Shown in pieces: positions 445 through 52,875 of a stretch of DNA of 64,000 nt. Every line of letters begins with the position of its first letter. The first letter of the stretch is position 1. The stretch spans positions 43,771,110 through 43,835,109 of the forward strand of contig CM077647.1 of the NCBI GenBank assembly GCA_039707465.1, in the 5' to 3' direction. Source of the DNA: Rhabdophis nuchalis. Taxonomy: Eukaryota > Chordata > Lepidosauria > Squamata > Natricidae. The notes beneath the pieces are model-generated. The model was not told the origin of the DNA, made no database searches, and saw only the letters and a program-made list of their open reading frames with translations. The position numbers and the translations under genes were made by a program.

Positions 445-3167
445 AACGACCTTGTGCCGGAGGGGGAGCCGTACCTGGCAGGACTTACAGAGACCTGGCT
501 GGGCCACGAGGGAGGACTTCCCATCATGGAAATGTGCCCGCCAGGTTACGGTGTGTTCCATCAGTCGCGGGCCCTAGGCAGGGGTGGGGGGTGGCGGTCA
601 TAGTCAGGGAAGGTCTTGAGCCGAGAGAGACCACTGTGCCACAGATACCTGGTTGTGAGTCCCTCTGCGTGAAGTGGGGCCTAGGGAGGCAGTTGGGCTT
701 GCTGATTGTGTACCTGGCTCCCCGCTACGTATCAGCAGCCCTGCCCGAGCTCCTCGAGGTGATCGCCGAGATGGCAGTTGAGACCCCCAGACTGTTAGTC
801 ATGGGGGACTTTAACCTGCCATCGGTAGGCGAGACATCCAAGGCAGCTCAGGAGTTCATGGCCTCCATGACGGCCATGGAACTGACCCAAGTAATTCAGG
901 GCCCCACACACGAGGGAGGACACACACTGGATCTCATTTTTGTCTCTGGCCAGTAGATGATTGATCTTGGAGTAGGGGATTTAGCCATCGTAACCCTGTC
1001 ATGGTCAGATCACTCACTTCTCTGACTCGACTTTCCTACCGCTACACCCCACCGTGGGGGGGGGGGGCGGAACCAGAATTTCCTAGTTGGTTCCACCCCA
1101 GGCGCCTGATGGAACCTGAAAGGTTCCAGATGGAGCTTGGGCCATTACCTGAGACTCTGACCCGCACCCGGATGGAGGACCTGGTGGCTGCATGGAACAG
1201 TGCAGCCACTGGGGCCTTGGATCGGGTCGCGCCTTTGCGGCCTCTCTTGCGGCAGCGAACCACCCAGGTTCCTTGGTTTTCCGAGGAGTTGAGGGTGATG
1301 AAGTGCTGCATGAGACTCCTAGAGAGGAGATGGAGATCCACACGCTCTGAATCGGACCGGACACAGGTAAGAGCCCATTTGAGGACCTACCTTGTGGCGA
1401 TAAGAGTGGCCAAACGTCAGTATTGTGCCACTCCCTCCTTCAACAGAGGCTGTGGGAAGCCCCACTACAGGGCAGAGCAGAGGAATTTGGGGAGCATCTG
1501 CAGGACAAAATCGCTCAGATTCGGAGTGAGTTGGTCTCCACCAAAAGTGGTCTGGAGGGGATGTCAGGGGATGTCTTGAGATGCCACTCTGAGAGGAGTT
1601 TAACTCTGTTGCTTCTGAAGATATGGACAGGTTGTGTAGGCGACTGAGAGCTACCATATGTTTATTGGACCCGTGTCCCTCCTGGCTTGTACTGGCATCC
1701 TGGGAGGTTTCACGAGGCTGGCTCCAGGAAATAGTGAATGATTCTTTGAGTGAGGGGTTCTTGCCAACCGTCTTGAAAGAGGCGGTGGTGAGGCCTCTCC
1801 TCAAGAAGCCTTCCCTGGACCCAGCATTGTTAGTAAATTATCGTCCGGTCTCCAACCTTCACTTTTTGGCGAAGGTTGTAGAGAGTGTGGTGGCACAACA
1901 GTTCCCACGTCACCTGGAGGAAATTGATTATCTGGACCCGCGCCAGTCCGGCTTCCGGTCCAGTCACAGCACGGAGACGGCTTTCGTCGAGTTGGTGGAT
2001 GATCTCTGGAGGGCCAGAGATGGGGGTTGTTCCTCCATCCTGGTCCTATTAGACCTCTCGGTGGCTTTTGATACCATCGACCATGGTATCCTATTGCATT
2101 GACTGGAGGGGTTGGGGGTGAGGGGCACCATTTTACGGTGGTTCTCCTCCTACCTCTCTGGTCGATCACAATTTGTATTGGCAGGGGGGCAGAGGTCGTC
2201 CTCGAGGCCTCTCACTTGTGGGGTTCCTCAGGGGTCGGTCCTCTCGCCCCTCCTGTTCAATACATATATGAAGCCACTGGGCAAGATCATCCGTGGTTTT
2301 GGGGTAGATTACCATCTGTACACTGATGATACTCAGTTGTACATCTCTACCCCAAACCACCCCAATGATGCTGTCGAAGTGATGTCCCAGTGTCTGGAAG
2401 CTGTACGGGTCTGGATGGGAAGGAACAGATGCAAGCTCAACCTGTCCAAGACTGAGTGGCTGTGGTTACCGGTGCCCCGGTTCAACCAGTTGACTCCATC
2501 ACTGGCCATAGGGGGCGAACATCTGGCCCCCGTGGATTGGGCACGCAAATTGGGCATCCCCCTAGATGCCCGGCTGTCAGTGGAGGACCATGTGACATCC
2601 GTGGCCAGGGGCACATTCCACCAGGTTCACCTGGTGCGCCAGTTGCGTCCCTTATTGGACCAGGACGCCCTTCGAACAGTCACTCATGTGCTTGTGACAT
2701 CCCGTCTGGACTACTGTAATGCTCTCTACATGGGGTTCCCCTTGAAATGCAGCCGAAGGCTGCAGCTGGTCCAAAATGTGGTAGCGCGGGCAGATTTGGG
2801 AGTTACCAGATACTCCCATGTAACACCGCTCCTGCGCAGGCTGCACTGGCTGCCTGTGGCCATTCGGGTGCGTTTCAAGGTGTTGGTCATCATCTTTAAA
2901 GCGCTCCATGGCACAGGACCTAGCTATTTGCGGGATTGTATCCTGCCCCATACATCCCTTCGGCCGATTCGCTCCCACAGAGAGGGACTTCTCCGGGTGC
3001 CATCCACTAGGCAGTGCCAGCGGGCGACGCCCAGGGGAAGGGCCTTCTCTGTGATGGGCCCGACCCTTTGGAATGACCTACCCCCTGATATCAGAACTAC
3101 CACGGACCTCCGCTCCTTCCGCCAGAAACTTAAAACTCACCTGTTCCATCAAGCCGGCTTGGCCTAA
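445..3167 (+). pseudogene. Degraded L2-A ORF2 (APE-type endonuclease + reverse transcriptase)
   Basis: In L2-type LINEs this polyprotein nicks target DNA and reverse transcribes the element RNA. Visible in order: an endonuclease block with VMGDFNLPS near 800-830 and GGHTLDLIFVSGQ ending in a stop at 954-956; a WSDHSLL motif near 1003; the RT fingers with LLKKPSLDPALL and NYRPVSNL near 1800-1860; HSTETAF and LDLSVAFDTIDHGILL near 1965-2098; then a TGA at 2101 replacing the usual Arg. The frame resumes with GVPQGSVLSPLLFNTY near 2220. The catalytic box reads YTDD at 2319-2330 instead of the YADD seen in the other copies. The C-terminal block (LDYCNALYMG, LHWLPVAIRVRFKVL, LFHQAGLA) ends at 3167. 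Several frame changes occur between 956 and 1800. It is a dead copy. Confidence 0.85.
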
Positions 3168-5202: not shown

Positions 5203-7261
5203 TTATTTTTTATTTTTCATACTTATATCCCGCACCCATCTCCCACAGAGGGACCCGGAATGAATATACCACTTATATTGATTTTCAATGGTGACACTGA
5301 TTGTTACATTTTGTATAGTATGGAAATAATATATAAGTTGCCTTTTTTATCTATTAAATTAAAACTGAACTATTGTCTCTGAACTGCTGCTATTACTGAG
5401 TTCTTGGTTAAGTTTCTGCTATGGTTTAACCATTAGATTAAAACATCAAAACGTTTTCAGTACAATATATATATACTCATTTAAAAGTTGCTGTTGTTCG
5501 GTAACATGATATTAAACTTGATGGAAGCAGTGTTTCACATTTCACCTTAACAGGTACATTTTTATTGTAGGTCTTGCAAAATCTCTCCCATGGCTCATTT
5601 AAAATAGCTTTAGTTTTACTTTCTATGTGTTAATTCATGAAGTGTACACTTGACCCTAATAAAGTTCTGTGCTGTAGAAAATCTCATGTCTTTTCAAAAT
5701 CTATCATTTTTTCCCTTTTTTTTTTTTTAGAGCAACAATGTTAGCTCTAGTGTTAAGTTCATAGCAGAGCAAGTAAAAAGCTTTCACTTAGCATACTGGC
5801 ACACGGGAAAAGCAGGAAATAAATGGAAACCACTAAAACAAAAGATAATAGGAGTTTTTAAAAGAAGCAACTCAAAAGAAATGGTGACATGGTGACCATA
5901 GAATTTAAAAGTGCTGAATTCAGTAACTAGGTATTTTTAATAGCACATGTATCACATCTGTCTTGCTCTGGGACCAGGTGTTTGATTTCTGTAGAGACAT
6001 GAATGTCTTTTAAGTATATATTCCATCATTATATGAAACTGACAGAACCATCCAGTTAATGGCAGGTTTTGATCATGTGAGCTGCTGGATAATTGACAAA
6101 AAATATTTCTAGATAATTGAAAAAGAAAGATACTATTTAGTTAGCATGAACAGTATGGAAAATGGCATTGTTATAGAGTTGTCAAGTAGAGTAAAGATAC
6201 AAAATTCTAGAACTTATATTTGCTTGAATACTAAGAATTCACCAAGTTTATGTATCCATTGTTTATTAAATAGTATTTCTTGAAGTGTTAAAAGACTGGG
6301 TAATTTCTTCTGTTTGTTGTTAACATTGTTACATCTTTTGTTGTTAAAATTATTCTTTGTTTATTTGTAAAATTTATTGGCTGCCCATCTTACCACAATT
6401 GTTAAAACTCTTATAGATAATAATCTGTAAATATCAAATCCTACAAAGCAGAAAAGTAATGTATAAATAAATTAATATATGCAGTAAGATATTTCTTACT
6501 GTACCTTTATAATTAAGTTTTAGCAGGTGGAATGTTAAGTTTTAATTGGCTTAATTGGTAGATCAATCAAACAGAACTTCTGAGCTTCAGAACTCGGGTT
6601 TAATCAGTATCTTTATTTAAAGTAATTTTGGATCTCTAATGGGAACAACATTTATTACTGAAGATAGCTCTTTTTCCTTGCAGAGTATGACTACTTAAGA
6701 ATAACATACTGAGGTTTTATTTTTTTCAAAGTGACCATATTTTTAAACCGCTGATTACAATTATTTACAATTATTGTTAGCTCCAGCTATAATATCTAAT
6801 GGAATTTCTTAATATCTTATTTAGCTTCTTATTTCCTTGAACACATAGTCACAGACTTTTTATTCTTTTTGATACTTCTTGAATTCACAAAAACATCAAA
6901 GACTTAGTGATAATTTCTAATAATTTCCAGCCATATGTAATAATACAATATTATTAAAATGTATGTGTATGAATATGTATGAATCTGTTTCAAAAGGGAT
7001 GGCAAATATTCAAAAATATAAAGCAAATATTCTAGAATAGACAAATTTTTAGAGAACAGATGTAAGGAAATCTGGCTGACATACAAACATCCTTATTGGC
7101 TTAATATTAAATGTATATGCAGGACTTCAAGAGTCAGCAACAAGAATCACTCTCAGATCAGTACAGACAGTATCTATGCTGTTGGTTCACAGTATCCTTG
7201 TTTTATAAGGCTGGGCACCTCTGAGTTATATGCCCTCTCATATACTCCCTGAACTGTAGGG
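5203..7261. other. Intronic AT-rich sequence, no gene recognised
   Basis: No coding pattern, RNA gene or recognisable repeat was seen over about 2 kb. Only short T-rich runs occur, for example near 5710-5730. Confidence 0.5.
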
Positions 7262-8744: not shown

Positions 8745-11484
8745 CCTTACTTAATAATAATAATAATAATTATTATTATTATTTTAATTTTATATCCCGC
8801 TCTCTCTCCCCAAAGGGACTCGAGGCGGGGCACAGGCAATTAAAAATACAGATAAAACCACAGACAGAATACAAAATTAAAAATGAATTAAATTAGTCCT
8901 GCGCTAAAAACCCATAAACTAAACTAAAACTACCCCTAAAACCCCTAACCTTAGAAGAGACTACCCAAGGCCGGCCAGGCGAAAAAGATGTGTCTTTAAT
9001 TTTAAACGGAAGGAGCGGAGGTCCATAGTTGTCCTAATATCGGGGGAAAGGTCGTTCCAGAGGGCTGGGCCCACCACAGAGAAGGCCCTTCCCCTGGGCG
9101 TCGCCCGCTGACAAAGTCTAGTGGACGGCACCCGGAGAAGTCCCTCTCTGTGGGAGCGAATCAGCCGTGAGGATGTATGGGGCAGGATCCGATCCCGCAG
9201 ATAGCTAGGTCCCGAGCCATGGAGCGCTTTGAAGATGATGACTAACACCTTGAAGCGCACCCGAAAGACGACAGGTAGCCAGTGCAGCTCGCGCAAGAAC
9301 GGTGTTACGTGGGTAAACCTAGAGGTTCCCATTATTGCTCGCGCGGCTGCGTTCTGGACCAACTGAAGCCTCCGGGTGCAACTCAAGGGGAGCCCCATGT
9401 AGAGAGAGTTACAATAGTCCAGTCGGGATGTCACGAGAGCATGAGTGACTGTGCAAAGGGCGTCCCGATCCAATAGGGGGCGCAACTGGCGTACCAGGCG
9501 AACCTGGTAAAACGCCCTCCTGGCCACGGCTGTCACTTGATCTTCCATGGACAGCCGGGTATCCAGGAGGACACCCAAGTTGCACGCCCCATCCACAGGG
9601 GCAAGATGTTCACCCCCTATGGCCAGAAATGGCATCAACTGGTTGAATCGGGCAGCCGGAAACCACAGCCACTCGGTCTTGGTCGGGTTGAGCCTGAGTC
9701 CGTTACTTCCCATCCAGTCCGCACGGCTTCCAGGCACTGGCACATCACCGCTACGGCATCGTTGGGGTGGTTTGGGGTAGATATATACAGCTGAGTATCA
9801 TCAGCGTAGAGATGATACTCTACCCCAAAACCACGGATGATCTCGCCCAGCGGCTTCTTATATGTGTTGAACAGGAGAGGCGAGAGGACCGACCCCTGAG
9901 GCACCCCACATGTGAGGGGTCTCGAGGTGGACCTCTGCTCTCCCGTCAACACAAATTGCGATCGCCCAGAGAGGTAGGAGGAGAACCACCGTAAAACGGT
10001 GCCTCCCACCCCCAACCCCCCCAGCCGATGCAATAAGATACCATGGTCGATGGTATCGAAAGCCGCCGAGAGGTCTAATAGAACCAGGATGGAGGAACAG
10101 CCCCCATCTCTGGCCCTCCAGAGATCATCCACCAACGCGACCAATGCCGTCTCGGTGCTATGCCCAGGCCGAAAGCCGGACTGGCGCGGGTCTAGATAAT
10201 CAACTTCCTCCAGGTGACGGGGAAACTGTTGTGCCACCACACTCTCAACAACCTTTGCCAAAAAGGGAAGGTTGGAGACAGGACGATAGTTAGATAATAA
10301 AGCTGGATCCAAAGAGGGCTTCTTGAGGAGGGGTCTCACCATGGCCTCTTTTAGGGAAGCAGGCAAGGAACCCTCACTCAAGGATGCGTTGACAACCTCT
10401 TGGAGCCAGCCTCGTGTCACCTCCCAGGATGCCAGTACAAGCCAGGAGGGACACGGGTTCAGTAAACATGTGGTGGCTCGCAGTCGCCCACGAAGCCTGT
10501 CCATATCATCGGAAGTAACGGAGTCAAACTCCTCCCAAACAAGATCCGCCTCGTGGCATTCCACTGGGCCATTAATGGGGGCTAGCTCGTTCTGTATCTG
10601 AGCGATTTTCTCCTGCAGATAAGACACAAATTCCTCTGCTCTGCCCTGTAAAGGGGCTTCCCGCACCCTCTGTTGAAGGAGGGAGCGGGTCACCCTAAAC
10701 AGGGCGGCAGGGCGGTTATCTGCGGATGCTATGAGAGTGGCACAATGGTGGCATTTGGCCACTCTCAGCGCCACAATGTAAGTCCGTAAATGGGCTCTTA
10801 CCTGTGTCCGGTCAGATTCATATCGGCTAGACCTCCATCTTCTCTCTAGGCGTCTCTTGTGGTGTTTCATCACCCTCAGCTCCTCGGTAAACCAAGGAGC
10901 CAGGGTGGCTCGCCGCCGCAAGAGAGGCCGCAAGGGCGCGACCCGATCCAAGGCTCCCGTGGTCGCAGTATTCCATGCGGCCACGAGGTCCTCCATCGGG
11001 GCGCGGGTCAGGGGCACAGGAAGTGGCCCAAGCACCGCCTGGAACCCATCAGGGTCTATCAAGCGCCTCGGGCGGAACCAGATTGGTGATTCAGGTTCCG
11101 CCTCCCCGCGGAGGGGAGTAGCGGTCGGAAAGTCAAGCCGGAGAAGTGAGTGGTCTGACCATGACAAGGGCGTGATGGCTATATCCCCTATACCCAGATC
11201 ACTCTTCCATTGGCCAGAGACAAAGATGAGATCCGGTGTATGTCCACCCTCGTGGGTGGGGCCTTGAATTAATTGGGTCAGGTCCATGGCCGTCATGGAA
11301 GCCATGAACTCCCGAGCTACCACGGATGATTCGCCCACCGATGGCAGATTAAAGTCCCCCATGACTAAAAGTCTGGGGGTCTCAACTGCCACCTCTCTGG
11401 CCAATCACCTCCAGGAGCTCGGGCAGGGCTGCTGCTACATAGCGGGGAGCCAGGTATACAACCAGCAAGCCCAACTGCCCCAAT
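8745..11484 (-). mobile_element. L2 LINE 'L2-D', antisense, 5'-truncated in the endonuclease domain
   Basis: On the minus strand the element begins at about 11484 in endonuclease-coding sequence and runs to a 3' end marked by CCTCGAGTCCC and GGGATATAAAAT (8790-8830). A mixed (AAT)n/(ATT)n tail follows at 8750-8785. It lies in the same transcriptional direction as DGKB, so its poly(A)-type signals are sense in the intron. Confidence 0.85.
8961..11484 (-). pseudogene. L2-D ORF2, nearly intact (endonuclease C-part, full RT, C-terminal domain)
   Basis: One uninterrupted frame of 589 codons (11404 down to 9635) holds VMGDFNLPSVGESS, the LSWSDHSLLRLDF motif, LLKKPSLDPALLSNYRPVSNL, HSTETALVALVDDLWRARD, LDLSAAFDTIDHGILLHRL, GVPQGSVLSPLLFNTY and the catalytic YADD at about 9797-9808. 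One frameshift near 9700-9740 moves the rest into another open frame of about 260 codons. That frame has LGVLLDTRLSMEDQV, VTSRLDYCNSLYMGLP, LVQNAAARAIMG and a C-terminus at 8961. Only the N-terminal part of the endonuclease is missing. This is the best preserved RT in the window, but the frameshift and truncation make it inactive. Confidence 0.9.
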
Positions 11485-33725: not shown

Positions 33726-36700
33726 ATGTACTCAAGGGCAGACCTAATCCTACTGCGGGAGTCCCCCCTCTCGCACGTTTGGCCCTCCGCTCTTACGAGG
33801 GCCCACTTTGATGAGGGATATATTAATCCAGAGAGGTGGGCGAGGCGTAGTCTTAGGGGGTTTTTAACCAAATTTTTAATTCGGCTTTTAGGGGGTTCCA
33901 GGGAGGAGGGGAGGGATAGTCCAGCTAGGGGGCGGAATACAACCAGGCTGGCCGGCGGAAGAGAGGAAACGGAGGAAGGGGAGGGGGGGTCGTTTCCACT
34001 GAGGTTTTAACCATTAGTTCGGTTCTGGGGAGGGGCAGGGGCGGTGGGAGACGGATGCGGTCGGAGGACCGTGGCTGCTGGTTACAGGCGGTCACGCGCT
34101 CTGACTCCCCATGCTCCCATCGCAGACTAGGTGGGCAAGGACCACAGAGCCGGGGCCCTAGGCTGATGTTATGCAACGCCAGGTCCGTGGTGAACAAAGC
34201 TCCCCTCATTCGTGACCTCGTGTCAGAGGGGGACCCGGACCTGGTGGGTATAACGGAAACCTTGTTGGGCCTCGAGGGGGGTCTACCCCTCGTAGAAATG
34301 TGCCCACCAGGCTACCGAGCCTTCCATCAGCCTAGGGCCCTGGGGAGGGGTGGGGGTGGCAATTATGATTAGGGAAGGTCTTCAGCCAAAGGAGACCACT
34401 GTCCCCCAGACGACCGGGTGTGAGTCCCTCCTTGTGAAGTGGGGCCTAGGGAGGCAGATGGGTGTGTTAGTTGTATACCTGGCTCCTCGCTATTCAACAA
34501 CAGCCCTGCCCGAGCTCCTAGAGGTGATAGCCGAGGCGGCAGTTGAGACCCCCAGACTTTTGGTCATGGGGGACTTCAACCTGCCGTCGGTAGGTGAGAC
34601 CTCTGGTGCAGCTTGGGAGTTCATGGCTTCCATGACAGCCATAGACCTGACCCAGGTAGTTTTAGGCCCTACTCATGAGGGTGGACACACCTTGGATTTA
34701 ATCTTCATCTCAGGACAGTGGAGCCGTGATCTGGGAATAGGGGATTTAGCCATTACACCCCTGTCATGGACAGATCACGTTCTCCTTCGGCTGGACTTTC
34801 CAATCGCCGCACCTCACCGTGGGGAGGCGGAGCCGACTACTCCTATATGGTTCCGCCCCAGGCTCCTGATGGACCCGGTAAGGTTCCAGAGGGAGCTTGG
34901 GCCAATACCTGTGGACTTGCCCCGTGACTCGACTGAGGACCTGGTGGCTGCATGGTTAAGTGCGGCCACGGGGGCCTTGGACCGAGTCGCGCCCTTGTGG
35001 CCTCTCTTGCGGCGACGAGTCACCCAGGCTCCTTGGTTTACTGAGGAGCTGAGGGAGATGAAACGCCACAAGAGACGCCTAGAGAGCAGATGGAGATCCT
35101 CTCGCTCCGAAGCCGACCGAACACTAGTGAGAATCCATATTAGGACTTACTTAGTGGCGATAAGAGTGGCCAAACGTGAGTATTGTGCCACCCTTATTGC
35201 ATCCGCAGATAACCGCCCTGCCGCCCTGTTTGGGGTGAACTGCTCCCTCCTTCACCAGAGGCCGCGGGAAGCCCCTCTGCAGGGACGAGCAGAGGAATTT
35301 GGGATTTATCTGCAGGACAAAATCACTCGGATTCGGAATGAGTTACCCTCCATCGAGAGTGGTCCAGCGAGATTGTCCGAGGTTGGTCTTGAGGCTCCAT
35401 TCTGGGAGGAGTTTGACTTTGTCACTACCGAGGATATGGACAGGTTGTCAAAGAGACTTAGGGCGACCACATGTTTATTGGACCCGTGTCCCTCCTGGCT
35501 TGTACTGGCATCCTGGGAGATGACACGAGGCTGGCTCCAGGGCATTGTCAACGCATCTTTGAGTGAGGGGTCCCTGCCTGCCGTCTTGAAAGAGGCGGTG
35601 GTAAGGCCCCTCCTCAAGAAGCCGTCCCTGGACCCAGCATTATTAGAGAACTTTCGTCCCATCTCCAACCTTCACTTTCTAGCGAAGGTTGTTGAGAGTG
35701 TGGTGGCCCAACAGTTTCCGCGACACCTGATGGAAGTTGATTATCTAGACCCACGCCAGTCCGGCTTCCGACCCGGTCACAGCACCGAGACGGCATTGGT
35801 CGCTTTGGTGGCTGATCTCTGGAGGGCGCGGGATAGAGGACATTCCTCTATCCTAGTCCTGTTAGACCTCTCATCAGCTTTTGATACCATCGACCATGGT
35901 ATCCTATTGCACCGACTGGGGGGGTTGGGGCTGGGAGGCACCGTTTTGTGGTGGTTCTCGTCCTACCTCTCTGGTCGGTCGCAATATGTGTTGGCAGGGG
36001 GGCAGAGGTCAGCCTCGAGGCCCCTCGTATGTGCGGTCCCTCAGGGGTCGGTCCTCTCGCCCCTCCTATTCAACACATATATGAAGCCGCTGGGTGAGAT
36101 CATCCGTGGTTTTGGGGTGGGATATCATCTGTACGCTGATGATACTCAGCTGTACATCTCCATACCAGACCACCCCAACGATGCCGTTGAGGTGATGTCC
36201 CGGTGTTTGGAAACCGTACGGATCCGGATGGGTAGTAACAAACTCAAGCTCAACCCATCCAAGACTGAGTGGCTGTGGTTTCCGGCACCCCGGTTAAGCC
36301 AGATTACTCCAACTCTGGCCATTGGGGGCGAAACACTGGCCCCCGTGGAGAGGGCGCACAATTTGGGTGTCCTCCTGGATTCCCGGCTGTCCATGGAGGA
36401 CCATGTGGCGGCCGTGGCCAGGGGGGGTTTTATCAGGTACGCCAGATGCACCAATTGCGCCCCTTACTGGACCGGGCTGCCCTTCGCACAGTCACTCAGG
36501 CCCTCGTGACATCTCGACTGGACTACTGCAATGCTCTCTACATGGGGCTTCCCTTGAGGTGTACTCGAAAGCTACAGCTAGTCCAGAATGCAGCCGCGCG
36601 GGTGATTACGGGAGCCCCTACATGCTCCCATATAACATCGATCCTGCGCGAGCTGCACTGGCTTCCTGTGGTCTTTCGGGTGTGCTTCAAGGTCTTGACG

Positions 36701-39304: not shown

Positions 39305-41186
39305 AGCATAGGTTAATTATGAAAAATGCAATGCAGATTCCTTCATAGTAGCTGGATGTTTTGGGGATCTGGGTCAAGAAAAAGGAGATTTTAGCTCAAA
39401 CATAGCAAAACTGAATAGATTAGGTTATAGGCCCTCTCAGATTTTCCATCCTTTTTCATGATCTATAGATGGCAAGGAAGATATTATTTGAAATTTGTAG
39501 GAACCAATATCTAGGCAAAAGGGATTAAAACATTGTGGAAGAAAAAACATTTGGAAGCAGCTCAGAAGATTATTCCCTAATTAATTTAAGTATAAAAATG
39601 AGGAGGGTAGGTAAAGCACAATCAGACTTACAAAATTCTGCTATAGCCAATCTCAATAAAAGTGGTTTATCTTTCTTATAAGTTCCTGATCTGGTATATC
39701 TAGTGGGACAGATAGCTTTTTCCTGGATTTATGGTTTCCATTTAAAGAACAGGTGACTGCTCCACCGAGGATTCCTTTTGCACATATCTCATGCACTAAT
39801 TGCAAGATTTCCTGTATTGAAAGGTACTAGTAATGGCATTGCCATTTTATTATAACTGCCCATCTTATACTTCTAGGCAGCAGCTATAGAGTAAAATGAC
39901 TTTCGACAATAATTAACCAACAATTATGAAAAGGTTCACCCAACCTCAAATCATCATATATGAGGGAGCATCCAGATATTCCAAGGTTTATAAAATACCA
40001 ACAAGTCAGGGTCAAGTGAATCTTATGGGGAGGAACTATGATGTTCCAAGGATCCATCACTGCAATAGAAGAGCCATGCTTCCTGGGTTTACAGATATCA
40101 TTGCTTGATAAGTAATGATATCTGTAATGACCTTCAATCCAATACAGTGGGGCAGATAATCTATCTATTAGCCTGAGATCTTAGATTATTTATGCTACCA
40201 AAACATTTCAGAGAAAATTTAAAATTCACAAAATGTTTCAACAACCTTCAATAAGCAATCAGATTCTCAGAAAGGCATTTACCCCACTAAGCAAGCTAGG
40301 TGTATATTAACTGATCTCCATCAATTTGCAAGAACAGAATTCCTCAATAAGTACTTGTCTTTAACATTTACTCATGGGGAACCTGTGCAGCTAGAGATAT
40401 TTATGAGTTGCTTTCAGCTTAAAAATAAATCACCTCTAATTCCTCTAAGCGAAATCAATCAAAAGTCTTGTTTTTAAAAAAGGTTGTTTGTTTGGTCGAT
40501 TCTGGCAGAAAGTAAACAGCACTTCAGCTTTTCTCTACCATTAAGGTCTAAATGACTTAGAAAGTAAATCAATATCTCTAGGCAGCCTTCTGGCTATTGT
40601 TTAGCCAGTAGATATAGATTTTCATTGGCTTACTACATCTTCTGGGAGTAACCTCTAATCTTCAGAGAGTAATAATAAGTTCGTTATCTAGTTCAGCTCT
40701 TTGTTGTACATTAAAATGGGAGGCATCCATCAGACATGCTTGGTGTAGTTAAAAGATGATGACATCCCATTCTACCTATTCCATAATAAAACAGTTTTGT
40801 TATATTATAGGACAAAATGTTAGGTCAAATCTTATTGTTGATAGATTATTATTATTATTGGCCAAACATTGTGGGAGGGAGAATAATGGGGATATAATTC
40901 GATATAAAATTAGCATGAGCTAAATCCTGATGCTGTTTGTTTGTTATACATATATGACACAAATTGTTCATTATTCATATCTGTTTTTTTTTTTACATAT
41001 AAAATAACCTCTGGTTAAGTACTGATATGAAGTAGACAGCTGTCAGAAGCAATCATTGCTTGTTCAGCTTAGCAGCTAGATGTTAACTGGACCAAAGTGA
41101 TCTCTCTCCCACCCAAGATAGAGAAAAATAATATTTATATGATTAGATACCTTCCGTTCTTAACCAATGATAATATTCTGCTCCAT
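39305..41186. other. Intronic sequence, no gene
   Basis: AT-rich with no recognised element over about 1.9 kb. Confidence 0.5.
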
Positions 41187-41210
41187 TGTGTGTGTGTGTG
41201 TGTGTGTGTG
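41187..41210. repeat. (TG)n microsatellite
   Basis: Twelve TG units abut the left arm of the foldback. The mirrored right side of the cassette ends in (CA)n at about 41800-41820. Confidence 0.9.
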
Positions 41211-41247
41211 TTAGTTTTTATGAGCTGATCAATAAATAAATCAGAGA

Positions 41248-41294
41248 GACTAGGATAGATCTATTTCGAGCTTTTTAGCTCTCATCAGCTAGTC
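41248..41294 (-). ncRNA. Hammerhead ribozyme, minus-strand copy (sense to DGKB)
   Basis: Reading the minus strand: stem I 5' side GACTAG, core CTGATGA, stem II GAGC / loop TAAAAA / GCTC, core GAA, stem III ATAG / two-base loop AT / CTAT, cleavage-site C, stem I 3' side CTAGTC. All pairings are complete and every core base matches the hammerhead consensus, including the A15.1-U16.1 pair. The predicted cleavage is 3' of the C opposite position 41254. It lies in the transcribed strand sense of DGKB, so the pre-mRNA intron would contain it. The very short stem III is typical of Penelope-type hammerheads, which may act best as dimers. Confidence 0.88.
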
Positions 41295-41334
41295 ATACTC
41301 TTGCTGGGATTCGAACCGGTATATATAAGAATAT

Positions 41335-41381
41335 GACTAGCTGATGAGAGCTAAAAAGCTCGAAATAGATCTATCCTAGTC
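41335..41381 (+). ncRNA. Hammerhead ribozyme, plus-strand copy
   Basis: Identical over 47 nt to the minus-strand copy. Stem I lies at 41335-41340 with 41376-41381, CTGATGA at 41341-41347, stem II at 41348-41351 with 41358-41361, GAA at 41362-41364, stem III at 41365-41368 with 41371-41374, and the cleavage C at 41375. The conserved core is complete, so it is predicted to be catalytically competent. It points toward the PLE-type terminus at 41798. Confidence 0.88.
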
Positions 41382-41420
41382 TTCTGATTTATTTATTGAT
41401 CAGCTCATAAAAACTAACAC

Positions 41421-41800
41421 ACATATTTAAAAAATCACACAACGGAATTCTTGGCTTTCTGTCTAGATGGTCTCTGGTGATGAGCGAAAGGCAGAAAAGG
41501 AAACAGTATGTCTCCTCTAATTGGGGCCCTAACAGGGTGTTGTGGAATAATTAAATATAAATATAAATATAAATATAAATATAAATATAAATATAAATAT
41601 AAATATAAATATAAATATAAATATAAATATAAATATAAATATAAATATAAATATAAATATAAATATAAATATAAATATAAATATAAATATAAATATATGT
41701 ATGTATAATACATATTTGGGTCTTTTCCCGTGTTAACTTTTACACGGGAACAGACCCGAATAAACCAAAATCTACAGACCTATACCCATGAAAATCTACA
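41421..41800 (+). mobile_element. Penelope-derived non-coding segment with (AAATAT)n
   Basis: 41480-41545 (GAAAGGCAGAAAAGG, CAGTATGTCTCCTC, GGGGCCCTAACAGG) matches the PLE flank at 24845-24915. After the hexanucleotide repeat, a hairpin (GGGTCTTTTCCCGTGT / ACACGGGAACAGACCC, 41718-41757) and ACCTATACCCATGAAAATCT, ACAAA match the PLE 3' terminus at 23616-23690 (CCTACACCCGTGAAAATCTAC on its minus strand). No coding sequence remains. Together with the hammerheads it looks like a non-autonomous PLE or terminal-repeat derivative. Confidence 0.7.
41552..41697. repeat. (AAATAT)n minisatellite-like array
   Basis: About 24 hexamer units without interruption, in the middle of the PLE-derived segment. 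The open frames across it (KYKYKY.../LYLYLY...) are artefacts. Confidence 0.95.
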
Positions 41801-51682: not shown

Positions 51683-52875
51683 AATACAATAGCAGAGTTG
51701 GAAGGGACCTTGTAGGTCTTCTAGTCCAACCCCCTGCGTGGGCAGGAACCTTATACCATTTCAGACAAATGGCTATCTAACATCTTTTTAAAGACTTCCA
51801 GGGTTGGGGCATTCACAACTTCTGGAGGCAAGCTGTTCCAGAGGTTAATTGTTCTAACTGTCAGGAAATTTCTCCTTAGTTCTAAGTTGCTTCTCTCCTT
51901 GATTAGTTTCCACCCATTGCTTCTTGTCCTGCCCCCAGGTACCTTGGAGAATAGTTTGACTCCCTCTTCTTTGTGGCACCCTCTGAGATATCGGAACACT
52001 GCTATCATGTCTCCCCTGGTCCTTCTCTTCATCAAACTAGACATACCCAGCTCCTGCAACCGTTTTTCATATGTTTTAGTCTCCAGTCCCCTAATCATCT
52101 TGGTTGCTCGTCTCTGCACTCTTTCCAGAGTCTCCACGTCTTTTCTACATCGTGGCAACCAAAACTGTATGCAGTATTCCAAGTGTGGCCTTACCAAGGC
52201 ACTATACAGTGGCATTAACACTTCACGTGATGTAGATTCTATCCCTCTGTTTATGCAGCCTAGAACTATGTTGGCTTTTTTGGCAGCTGCTGCACACTGC
52301 TGGTTCATATTTAAATGGTTGTCCACTAGGATTCCAAGATCCCTCTCACAGTTGCTACTATTGAGCAACGTACCACCTATACTGTACCTGTGCATTTTGT
52401 TTTTCTTGCCTAAATGTAGAACCTTACTTTTTTCACAATTGAATTTCATTTTATTAGATAGTGCCCAATGTTCAAGTTTGTCAAGATCCTTCTGTATCTT
52501 AAGCCTATCTTCTGGAGTGTTGGCTATTCTTGCCAGCTTGGTGTCATCTGAAAATTTGATGAGTTCCCCATTTATCCCCTCATCCAAATCATTGATGAAG
52601 ATGTTGAAGAGTACTGGGCCTAAAACAGAGCCTTGGGGGACTCCACTGCATACTTCCTTCCATGTAGATGCAGTTCCATTGAGGACTACACGTTGAGTGC
52701 GGTTGGTCAGCCAGTTGCGAATCCATTTGGTGGTGATGCTGTCTAACCCATATTTTTCTACTTTATCTAATAGTAGGTTATGGTCTACTTTATCAAATGC
52801 CTTACTGAAGTCCAAGTAAATTATACCGACAGCATTCCTCTGATCCACTAACTTTGTCAAAGAATGCATTTATTC
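51683..52875 (-). mobile_element. CR1 LINE, 5'-truncated, inserted into HAL1 ORF1
   Basis: The 3' end on the plus strand, TACAATACAATAGCAGAGTT then GGAAGGGACCTTGTAGG, is the snake-type CR1 terminus. The same 3' end occurs at 58856 and 59402-59570. Both junctions interrupt an ORF1 region known intact from HAL1 copy 1 (CATATGCCAGAATAAATG / GTACCCAGAGAG). Confidence 0.9.
51751..52869 (-). pseudogene. CR1 ORF2 C-terminal half (reverse transcriptase and C-terminal domain), open frame
   Basis: 372 codons without a stop: LDFSKAFDKVDHNLLLDKV, SGVPQGSVLGPVLFNIFIND, the catalytic box as FSDD at about 52543-52554 (most CR1 copies have FADD), LGILVDNHLNMNQQCAAAAK, LYSALVRPHLEYCIQFWLPR, LERVQRRATKMIRGLE and FKKMLDSHLSEMV at the end. 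The N-terminal endonuclease and RT fingers are missing through truncation. The long open frame suggests a young copy. Confidence 0.9.

Follow-up and report, generated by a model that had tools for sequence, protein, structure and literature searches.

The 64-kb stretch of Rhabdophis nuchalis DNA analysed here (the window) contains two hammerhead ribozyme motifs of opposite polarity within a single foldback, which raises the question of how mirror-image copies of such a motif came to lie side by side in a squamate genome. Most probably the foldback is what a jumping element has left behind, and not a two-way RNA switch. With a probability of about 0.66 it represents one insertion of a short, non-coding hammerhead retroelement by a reverse transcriptase and endonuclease machinery of the Penelope type. 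The features discussed below are the following (positions are those of the window).

41175–41179, plus strand: ATTCT, candidate target-site duplication on the left, separated from the arm by 2 nt; weak
41182–41207, minus strand: possible 3′ tail of the left copy; at present a CA/TG microsatellite whose minus strand ends in AATGGA
41208–41302, minus strand: left arm, putative element copy of 95 nt with its 5′ end at 41302 and its 3′ end pointing left
41248–41294, minus strand: hammerhead motif, minus copy; descriptor match, and HH9 match of 33.2 bits (41234–41302), below the gathering threshold
41303–41326, no strand assigned: spacer of 24 nt, consisting of a 5′ extension of the left copy and most of the TATATATA palindrome
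41307–41317, minus strand: GGTTCGAATCC, an exact match to what we take to be a tRNA-type box B, directly upstream of the left copy
41327–41420, plus strand: right arm, putative element copy of 94 nt with its 3′ end pointing right
41335–41381, plus strand: hammerhead motif, plus copy; descriptor match, and HH9 match of 32.8 bits (41325–41398), below the gathering threshold
41365–41374, plus strand: stem III region ATAGATCTAT, an exact palindrome; mirror copy at 41255–41264
41375–41376, plus strand: predicted cleavage after C41375, in the same register as the descriptor match; the predicted minus-strand site follows the base opposite 41254
41421–41446, plus strand: possible 3′ tail of the right copy, ACATATTTAAAAAATCACACAACGGA; alignment weaker than in the arms
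41447–41451, plus strand: ATTCT, candidate target-site duplication abutting the right end; weak

The hammerhead motifs

Each arm of the foldback contains the core of a type I hammerhead (CTGANGA...GAA...UH) together with three stems, of which stem I is open, and the two 47-nt copies are letter-identical. In the plus copy, stem I is formed by GACTAG (41335–41340) and CTAGTC (41376–41381), the core comprises CTGATGA (41341–41347), GAA (41362–41364) and the cleavage C at 41375, and the stem II region covers 41348–41361. The minus copy mirrors this arrangement from 41294 to 41248, with its cleavage C opposite 41254. The sequence and a descriptor search confirm the two identical motifs of opposite polarity that the first-pass annotation had described, and the cleavage positions proposed there, after 41375 on the plus strand and opposite 41254 on the minus strand, are correct in the sequence register. 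The stem III of 4 bp with a 2-nt loop drawn in that annotation has to be replaced, as the energy model does not allow it; a stem of 3 bp with a GAUC loop fits, giving −8.0 kcal/mol for the whole structure. As a monomer ATAGATCTAT thus forms 3 bp and a GATC loop, and as a dimer it could form 10 bp.

Alignment of the plus-strand arm (41327–41420) with the minus-strand arm (41302–41208) bears out their supposed near-identity. Over 94 and 95 nt the arms differ at two places only, by one A/G substitution at the fifth base and one 1-nt indel, so that they are about 98% alike, and the repeat finder returns matching pairs. These sole two differences are located on either side of the outer stem I helix of 4 bp (minus copy, AGAG/CUCU; plus copy, AGAA/UUCU) and leave its pairing intact. 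Random draws of two sites hit exact partner positions in 0.4% of cases and positions within 1 nt of partners in 2.4%, in a test that was formulated post hoc. The paired arm differences hint, at this one locus, at two different source RNAs.

A type I descriptor (CTGANGA, stem II of at least 3 bp, GAA, stem III of at least 2 bp, UH and stem I of at least 3 bp, with G–U pairs allowed) matches at 41341 (+) and 41288 (−) alone on both strands of the 64 kb, and yields no match in 60 simulated Markov-1 windows of 64 kb. The covariance-model search suggested in the first-pass annotation gives a divided answer: at the Rfam gathering score no ribozyme is matched in the whole window, whereas at the E-value threshold the best ribozyme model, HH9 (RF02275), matches both arms at about 33 bits (33.2 and 32.8 bits, with whole-window E-values of 1.7e-4 and 2.2e-4). 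These scores are 19 bits short of the HH9 gathering threshold of 52 bits, and HH9 is best in an output that left out two lower-scoring overlaps of the same clan, and thus without scores for Hammerhead_1 or Hammerhead_3. Loop II has six bases, as in HH9 (CAAAAA in HH9, UAAAAA here), but the UUAC/UAC internal loop that HH9 has in its stem I is not conserved in the alignment, a difference that bears on the contact between loops I and II. The microRNA models mir-2329 (E-value 2.5e-6, whole window), MIR2646 (on a short stretch), MIR7533 and MIR396 also match the foldback, all far below their own thresholds; although some of their E-values are lower than those of HH9, they were set aside because any long hairpin yields such matches. 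Of 200 shuffles of the 48-nt core stretch, 197 fold less well than the original. Stem III is missing from this monomer energy fold, but since the energy model contains no hammerhead core, its absence is not counted against the hammerhead, nor does it lend support. In all, the hammerhead motif is well supported, though under the curated threshold.

Outside the window, five specific patterns for the element have no match in a collection of viral contigs, which is not one of vertebrate genomes and from which records of the window's source genome may be excluded. A looser pattern of box B plus hammerhead has one match there, at 5948–6100 of IMGVR_UViG_3300028590_000016 (L001), which was rejected as a relative, being a tRNA gene followed by a hammerhead-like motif unrelated to the window's element. 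At L001 the tRNA gene (5948–6021) is followed within 20 nt by the hammerhead-like CTGATGAG...CGAAA, then by a Y RNA-like gene and two more tRNA genes, and Rfam at the gathering score finds no ribozyme. The loose core pattern retrieves 37 stretches (L002–L038) from 36 viral contigs, and in addition one bacterial contig. Ten of these stretches hold two type I hammerhead-like motifs, 0.3–2.3 kb apart, and some contigs look redundant. At the gathering score no ribozyme is found in the four of the 38 loci that were searched with Rfam (L002, L008 and L015 among them). The loose-pattern loci were likewise discarded as relatives, their stems and flanks being unlike those of the window in all that were compared (L021 excepted), and these viral and bacterial loci say nothing on the window's element.

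Folding and predicted activity

In folding predictions, the stretch 41200–41430 forms a hairpin of 104 pairs with an energy of −169 kcal/mol and a z-score of −32, the CA-rich ends and pairs within the spacer being included; the length of about 90 bp originally suggested for the arms themselves is a fair estimate. The long hairpin was also expected to compete with the ribozymes, and the predicted energies agree with this, at −169 kcal/mol for the foldback against −13 kcal/mol for a single core. The accompanying claim that either strand carries an active ribozyme stands in so far as each strand contains one motif. In read-through RNA, however, the ribozyme arm is predicted to be outcompeted by the hairpin. 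On either strand it is the ribozyme arm that is made second, onto an already existing complement, and in growing-chain folds of both strands the second arm pairs stepwise onto the first while it is being made, so that silence of a two-way ribozyme would be expected in read-through RNA. According to these folding models, action of the ribozyme would require a transcript initiated between the arms.

A single-arm transcript (41320–41420) is not predicted to adopt the hammerhead as its minimum-energy fold, since its tail pairs with the core. Self-cleavage by the predicted ribozyme is doubtful in view of its stem III, which has only 3 bp and a palindromic tetraloop. Dimerisation of the 47-mer brings an ordinary gain in energy (54 of 200 shuffles are as good), so dimer stability was dropped as an argument and only the exact palindrome is retained as evidence. 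For two retrozyme families of axolotl with a weak stem III, the available part of PMC7229834 reports that single copies cleave poorly (6% and 22% in one hour) and that both families cleave far better as dimers; in one of the two, stem III is very weak and has a palindromic tetraloop.

Element boundaries and genomic setting

The two copies are arranged head-to-head, with their 5′ ends meeting at TATATATA, a palindrome at the inversion junction (41320–41327), and their AC-rich 3′ ends pointing outwards. From 5′ to 3′ the order within the putative element is a box B-containing stretch, the hammerhead, an AT-rich part and the AC-rich 3′ end. Beyond the arms, a weaker alignment extends via CA-rich sequence as far as 41446 and 41182 and then stops. 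Both outer ends therefore lie at nearly equal element positions, the strong part of the arm ending about 72 nt, and the weak part about 98 nt, past the start of stem II. The weak part terminates in AACGGA in one copy and in AATGGA in the left copy; agreement of five out of six letters has a chance of 0.6% for random pairs of places, and CpG decay would give just this difference. The TG/CA microsatellite at the left end (41187–41211) may have grown out of the element's own CACACA-rich 3′ end, and the right copy retains CACACA-TATTTAAAAAAT-CACACAA. The arms are AC-rich and ATTCT is present at both flanks. A repeat of at least 5 nt lying at most 3 nt from both ends has a chance of 1.9% for random pairs of places, ATTCT being only 5 bp long. 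A second, unrelated hairpin is located 300 bp to the right (41713–41762), with 24-nt arms that are 88% complementary and 2 nt apart; it adjoins a TAAATA array of 146 bp (41552–41697).

At the other end of the putative element, GGTTCGAATCC represents the only exact box B match in the window. With two mismatches allowed, 5 matches are found where 11 are expected, the remaining four all carrying 2 mismatches, and the box B match could have arisen by chance. ARAGORN and Rfam find no tRNA gene in the window, and the sequence where box A would lie is absent.

The hammerhead core includes an ATG, but the plus-arm frames are soon closed and none is open. Among the 20 ORFs scanned with Pfam, out of 62 listed ORFs of at least 100 aa in the window, five contain an RVT_1 reverse transcriptase domain and none a GIY-YIG or Penelope protein. 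With closed plus-arm frames, and with no ORF combining a reverse transcriptase and GIY-YIG among those scanned, the element can at most be a non-autonomous relative of the endonuclease-bearing (EN+) Penelope-like elements. LINE-type RVT_1 fragments occur at 34350–36509 (a 719-aa open frame), 9635–11401, 1623–3164 and 51751–52866. The ORF at 34350–36509, presumably CR1-like, contains RVT_1 and a sub-threshold Pfam endonuclease match. Its top protein matches are from squamates, with Ahaetulla, Crotalus, Varanus, Anolis and Podarcis among the top rows, and its highest identities are to snakes (Ahaetulla, 68% over 70% of the query; Pituophis, 80% over 28%), in line with a snake host. A BLAST search of the window returns no further copy of the arm, other matches being short with E-values of 0.13 or worse, which counts against a mobile element, and no tandem hammerhead unit, as would be looked for in a retrozyme, is present in the window.

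Origin of the foldback

A Penelope-type insertion would proceed as follows. The element RNA would be bound near its AC-rich 3′ end, the enzyme would cut both strands of an AT-rich target, and reverse transcription would begin at one same RNA position on both cut ends; alternatively, it would start on one cut end, with self-priming taking over at the palindromic 5′ end. Both cDNAs would then meet 5′ end to 5′ end and leave mirror-image copies. Priming of both cut ends at a fixed RNA site would in itself yield a head-to-head pair, and the nearly equal outer ends argue against a local duplication, which would not stop there, as well as against ordinary LINE twin priming. By analogy with retrozymes, the ribozyme would serve the element and not the host locus, trimming multimeric transcripts, probably in dimeric form by way of the palindromic stem III.

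Close parallels are found in Adineta vaga, where, according to the available part of PMC3846280, the pLTRs of endonuclease-bearing Penelope elements occur inverted, for the most part head-to-head, and palindromes mark the inverted junction; the Pen2a pLTR contains a TATATATA, as does the junction described here. There, one inverted pLTR may reportedly carry a 31-bp tail at its 3′ end, and duplications of the target measure 8, 9 and 10 bp in three insertions and are lacking in some copies. Unlike these duplications, the ATTCT candidate has 5 bp and is displaced by 2 nt on the left.

The Penelope element Poseidon (PAc) of Anolis carries a hammerhead, cuts 5′-ATT-3′ in AT-rich DNA and extends both strands, starting reverse transcription in an AC-rich stem-loop 111–118 bp into an ORF whose start coincides with the start of hammerhead stem II (PMC11167929). 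The foldback shares with Poseidon the hammerhead, an AC-rich region, which in Poseidon is where reverse transcription starts, and an AT-rich target, but unlike Poseidon it has no open frame in the arm. The Poseidon hammerhead cleaves in vitro only when protein is added, its ribozyme mutants still insert in vitro, and no database reads begin or end at its cleavage site (PMC11167929). On account of the latter two observations, it is not settled even for Poseidon that the ribozyme takes part in movement. Compared by description rather than by sequence, the foldback departs from Penelope-like elements in its short stem III, in arms of 95–120 nt and in the upstream box B. The short stem III counts against the Penelope reading, as hammerheads of Penelope-like elements are usually without stem III (available parts of PMC7761336 and PMC6155905).

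In being short and non-coding and in carrying a type I hammerhead, the element is similar to the metazoan non-LTR retrozymes, its weak stem III with a palindromic tetraloop resembling that of one axolotl family. Those of axolotl, mussel and coral consist of tandem repeats giving RNAs of about 170–400 nt, as far as described in the available part of PMC7229834; by comparison, the foldback, found in a squamate, consists of one inverted pair and lacks a full unit. A SINE-like element with a type I hammerhead is also known from Schistosoma as SMalpha. The likeness to SMalpha is again one of description and not of sequence, the host is unrelated, and a head-to-head layout is not mentioned for SMalpha in the available part of PMC8490949.

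Within the element reading, the mirror image may also have been completed by self-priming, in which a single strand, or an antisense RNA, folds back at its TATATATA-containing 5′ end and primes its own copy. This route, which overlaps with the insertion proposed above and is judged here only as a route given a mobile element, is a real possibility though not the favoured one. It accounts for the palindrome at the junction, the A/G difference at the fifth arm base lies beside the junction, where a priming error could sit, and the authors of PMC3846280, in the part available, favour it for such junctions on an antisense template. Both arm differences, on the other hand, keep the outer stem I paired, as expected of two source RNAs, an argument tempered by its dependence on a post hoc test of partner positions at a single locus. 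More distant from the Penelope scheme is a tRNA-headed hammerhead SINE that was moved by a LINE and inverted by ordinary twin priming on a tandem transcript. Twin priming leaves an inverted part with an internal outer end, whereas here both outer ends lie at nearly equal element positions. The exact match to box B immediately upstream of the ribozyme, the LINE reverse transcriptases in the window and the precedent of SMalpha in Schistosoma (available part of PMC8490949) all fit a SINE, but with no tRNA gene found and the place of box A missing a tRNA origin is no more than putative, and an origin of the foldback from such a SINE is unlikely.

An inverted duplication or gene conversion of host sequence, in which the hammerhead would be an old domesticated ribozyme of the HH9 type, agrees with amniote HH9 being the best ribozyme model in Rfam and with arms that are about 98% alike. 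The HH9 scores, however, fall 19 bits below threshold and the inversion is limited to the arms and their CA-rich ends, with the alignment stopping at 41446 and 41182, which makes this origin improbable. The recent duplication or gene conversion envisaged in the first-pass annotation is accordingly less likely than a head-to-head product of the kind that is frequent, though not found in every copy, in endonuclease-bearing Penelope-like elements (available part of PMC3846280). Least probable of all, and hardly to be expected, is a regulatory device in which the transcript of each strand chooses between ribozyme and long hairpin. One complete motif per strand and the large difference in predicted energy between hairpin and single core (−169 against −13 kcal/mol) would suit such a switch, but on both strands the ribozyme arm comes second and pairs stepwise with the first arm in the growing-chain folds.

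A Penelope-type insertion is thus the preferred reading, and a more specific form of it can be put forward tentatively, although as a whole it is rather unlikely. The foldback would belong to an undescribed squamate family of small hammerhead elements, transcribed from a tRNA-type (Pol III) promoter and dependent on a borrowed Penelope-type enzyme. The locus would have arisen by two-sided target-primed reverse transcription, in which two source RNAs whose ribozymes had co-varied were both copied from the same internal position, one at either end of a single cut.

Penelope elements and retrozymes with hammerheads are known, as are head-to-head Penelope copies. The combination of a type I hammerhead whose stem III is short, the lack of an ORF, a box B and a Penelope-style head-to-head insertion in a squamate was not met among the open-access papers listed. 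No hammerhead element in snakes appears among the titles and abstract openings listed from the open-access literature, which is not to claim absence in print, and the words Penelope and ribozyme do not occur in the text of a review of snake repeats (PMC8303610). As movers of the non-autonomous hammerhead retrozymes of animals, Penelope-like elements are only likely candidates; PLEs/Terminons are named as likely movers of non-LTR retrozymes in the available part of PMC7761336. A retrozyme-like ribozyme in a Penelope-style insertion would make this testable by genome-wide counts of layouts. It would also provide an amniote example of a mobile type I hammerhead that possesses a stem III, and conserved intronic ribozymes of amniotes are thought, in the available part of PMC6155905, to have been taken from mobile hammerheads of such a kind. 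If the reading as a tRNA-promoted family is true, the foldback would be a direct genomic trace of retrozyme movement and an amniote relative of the mobile ribozymes thought to be ancestral to the intronic amniote hammerheads.
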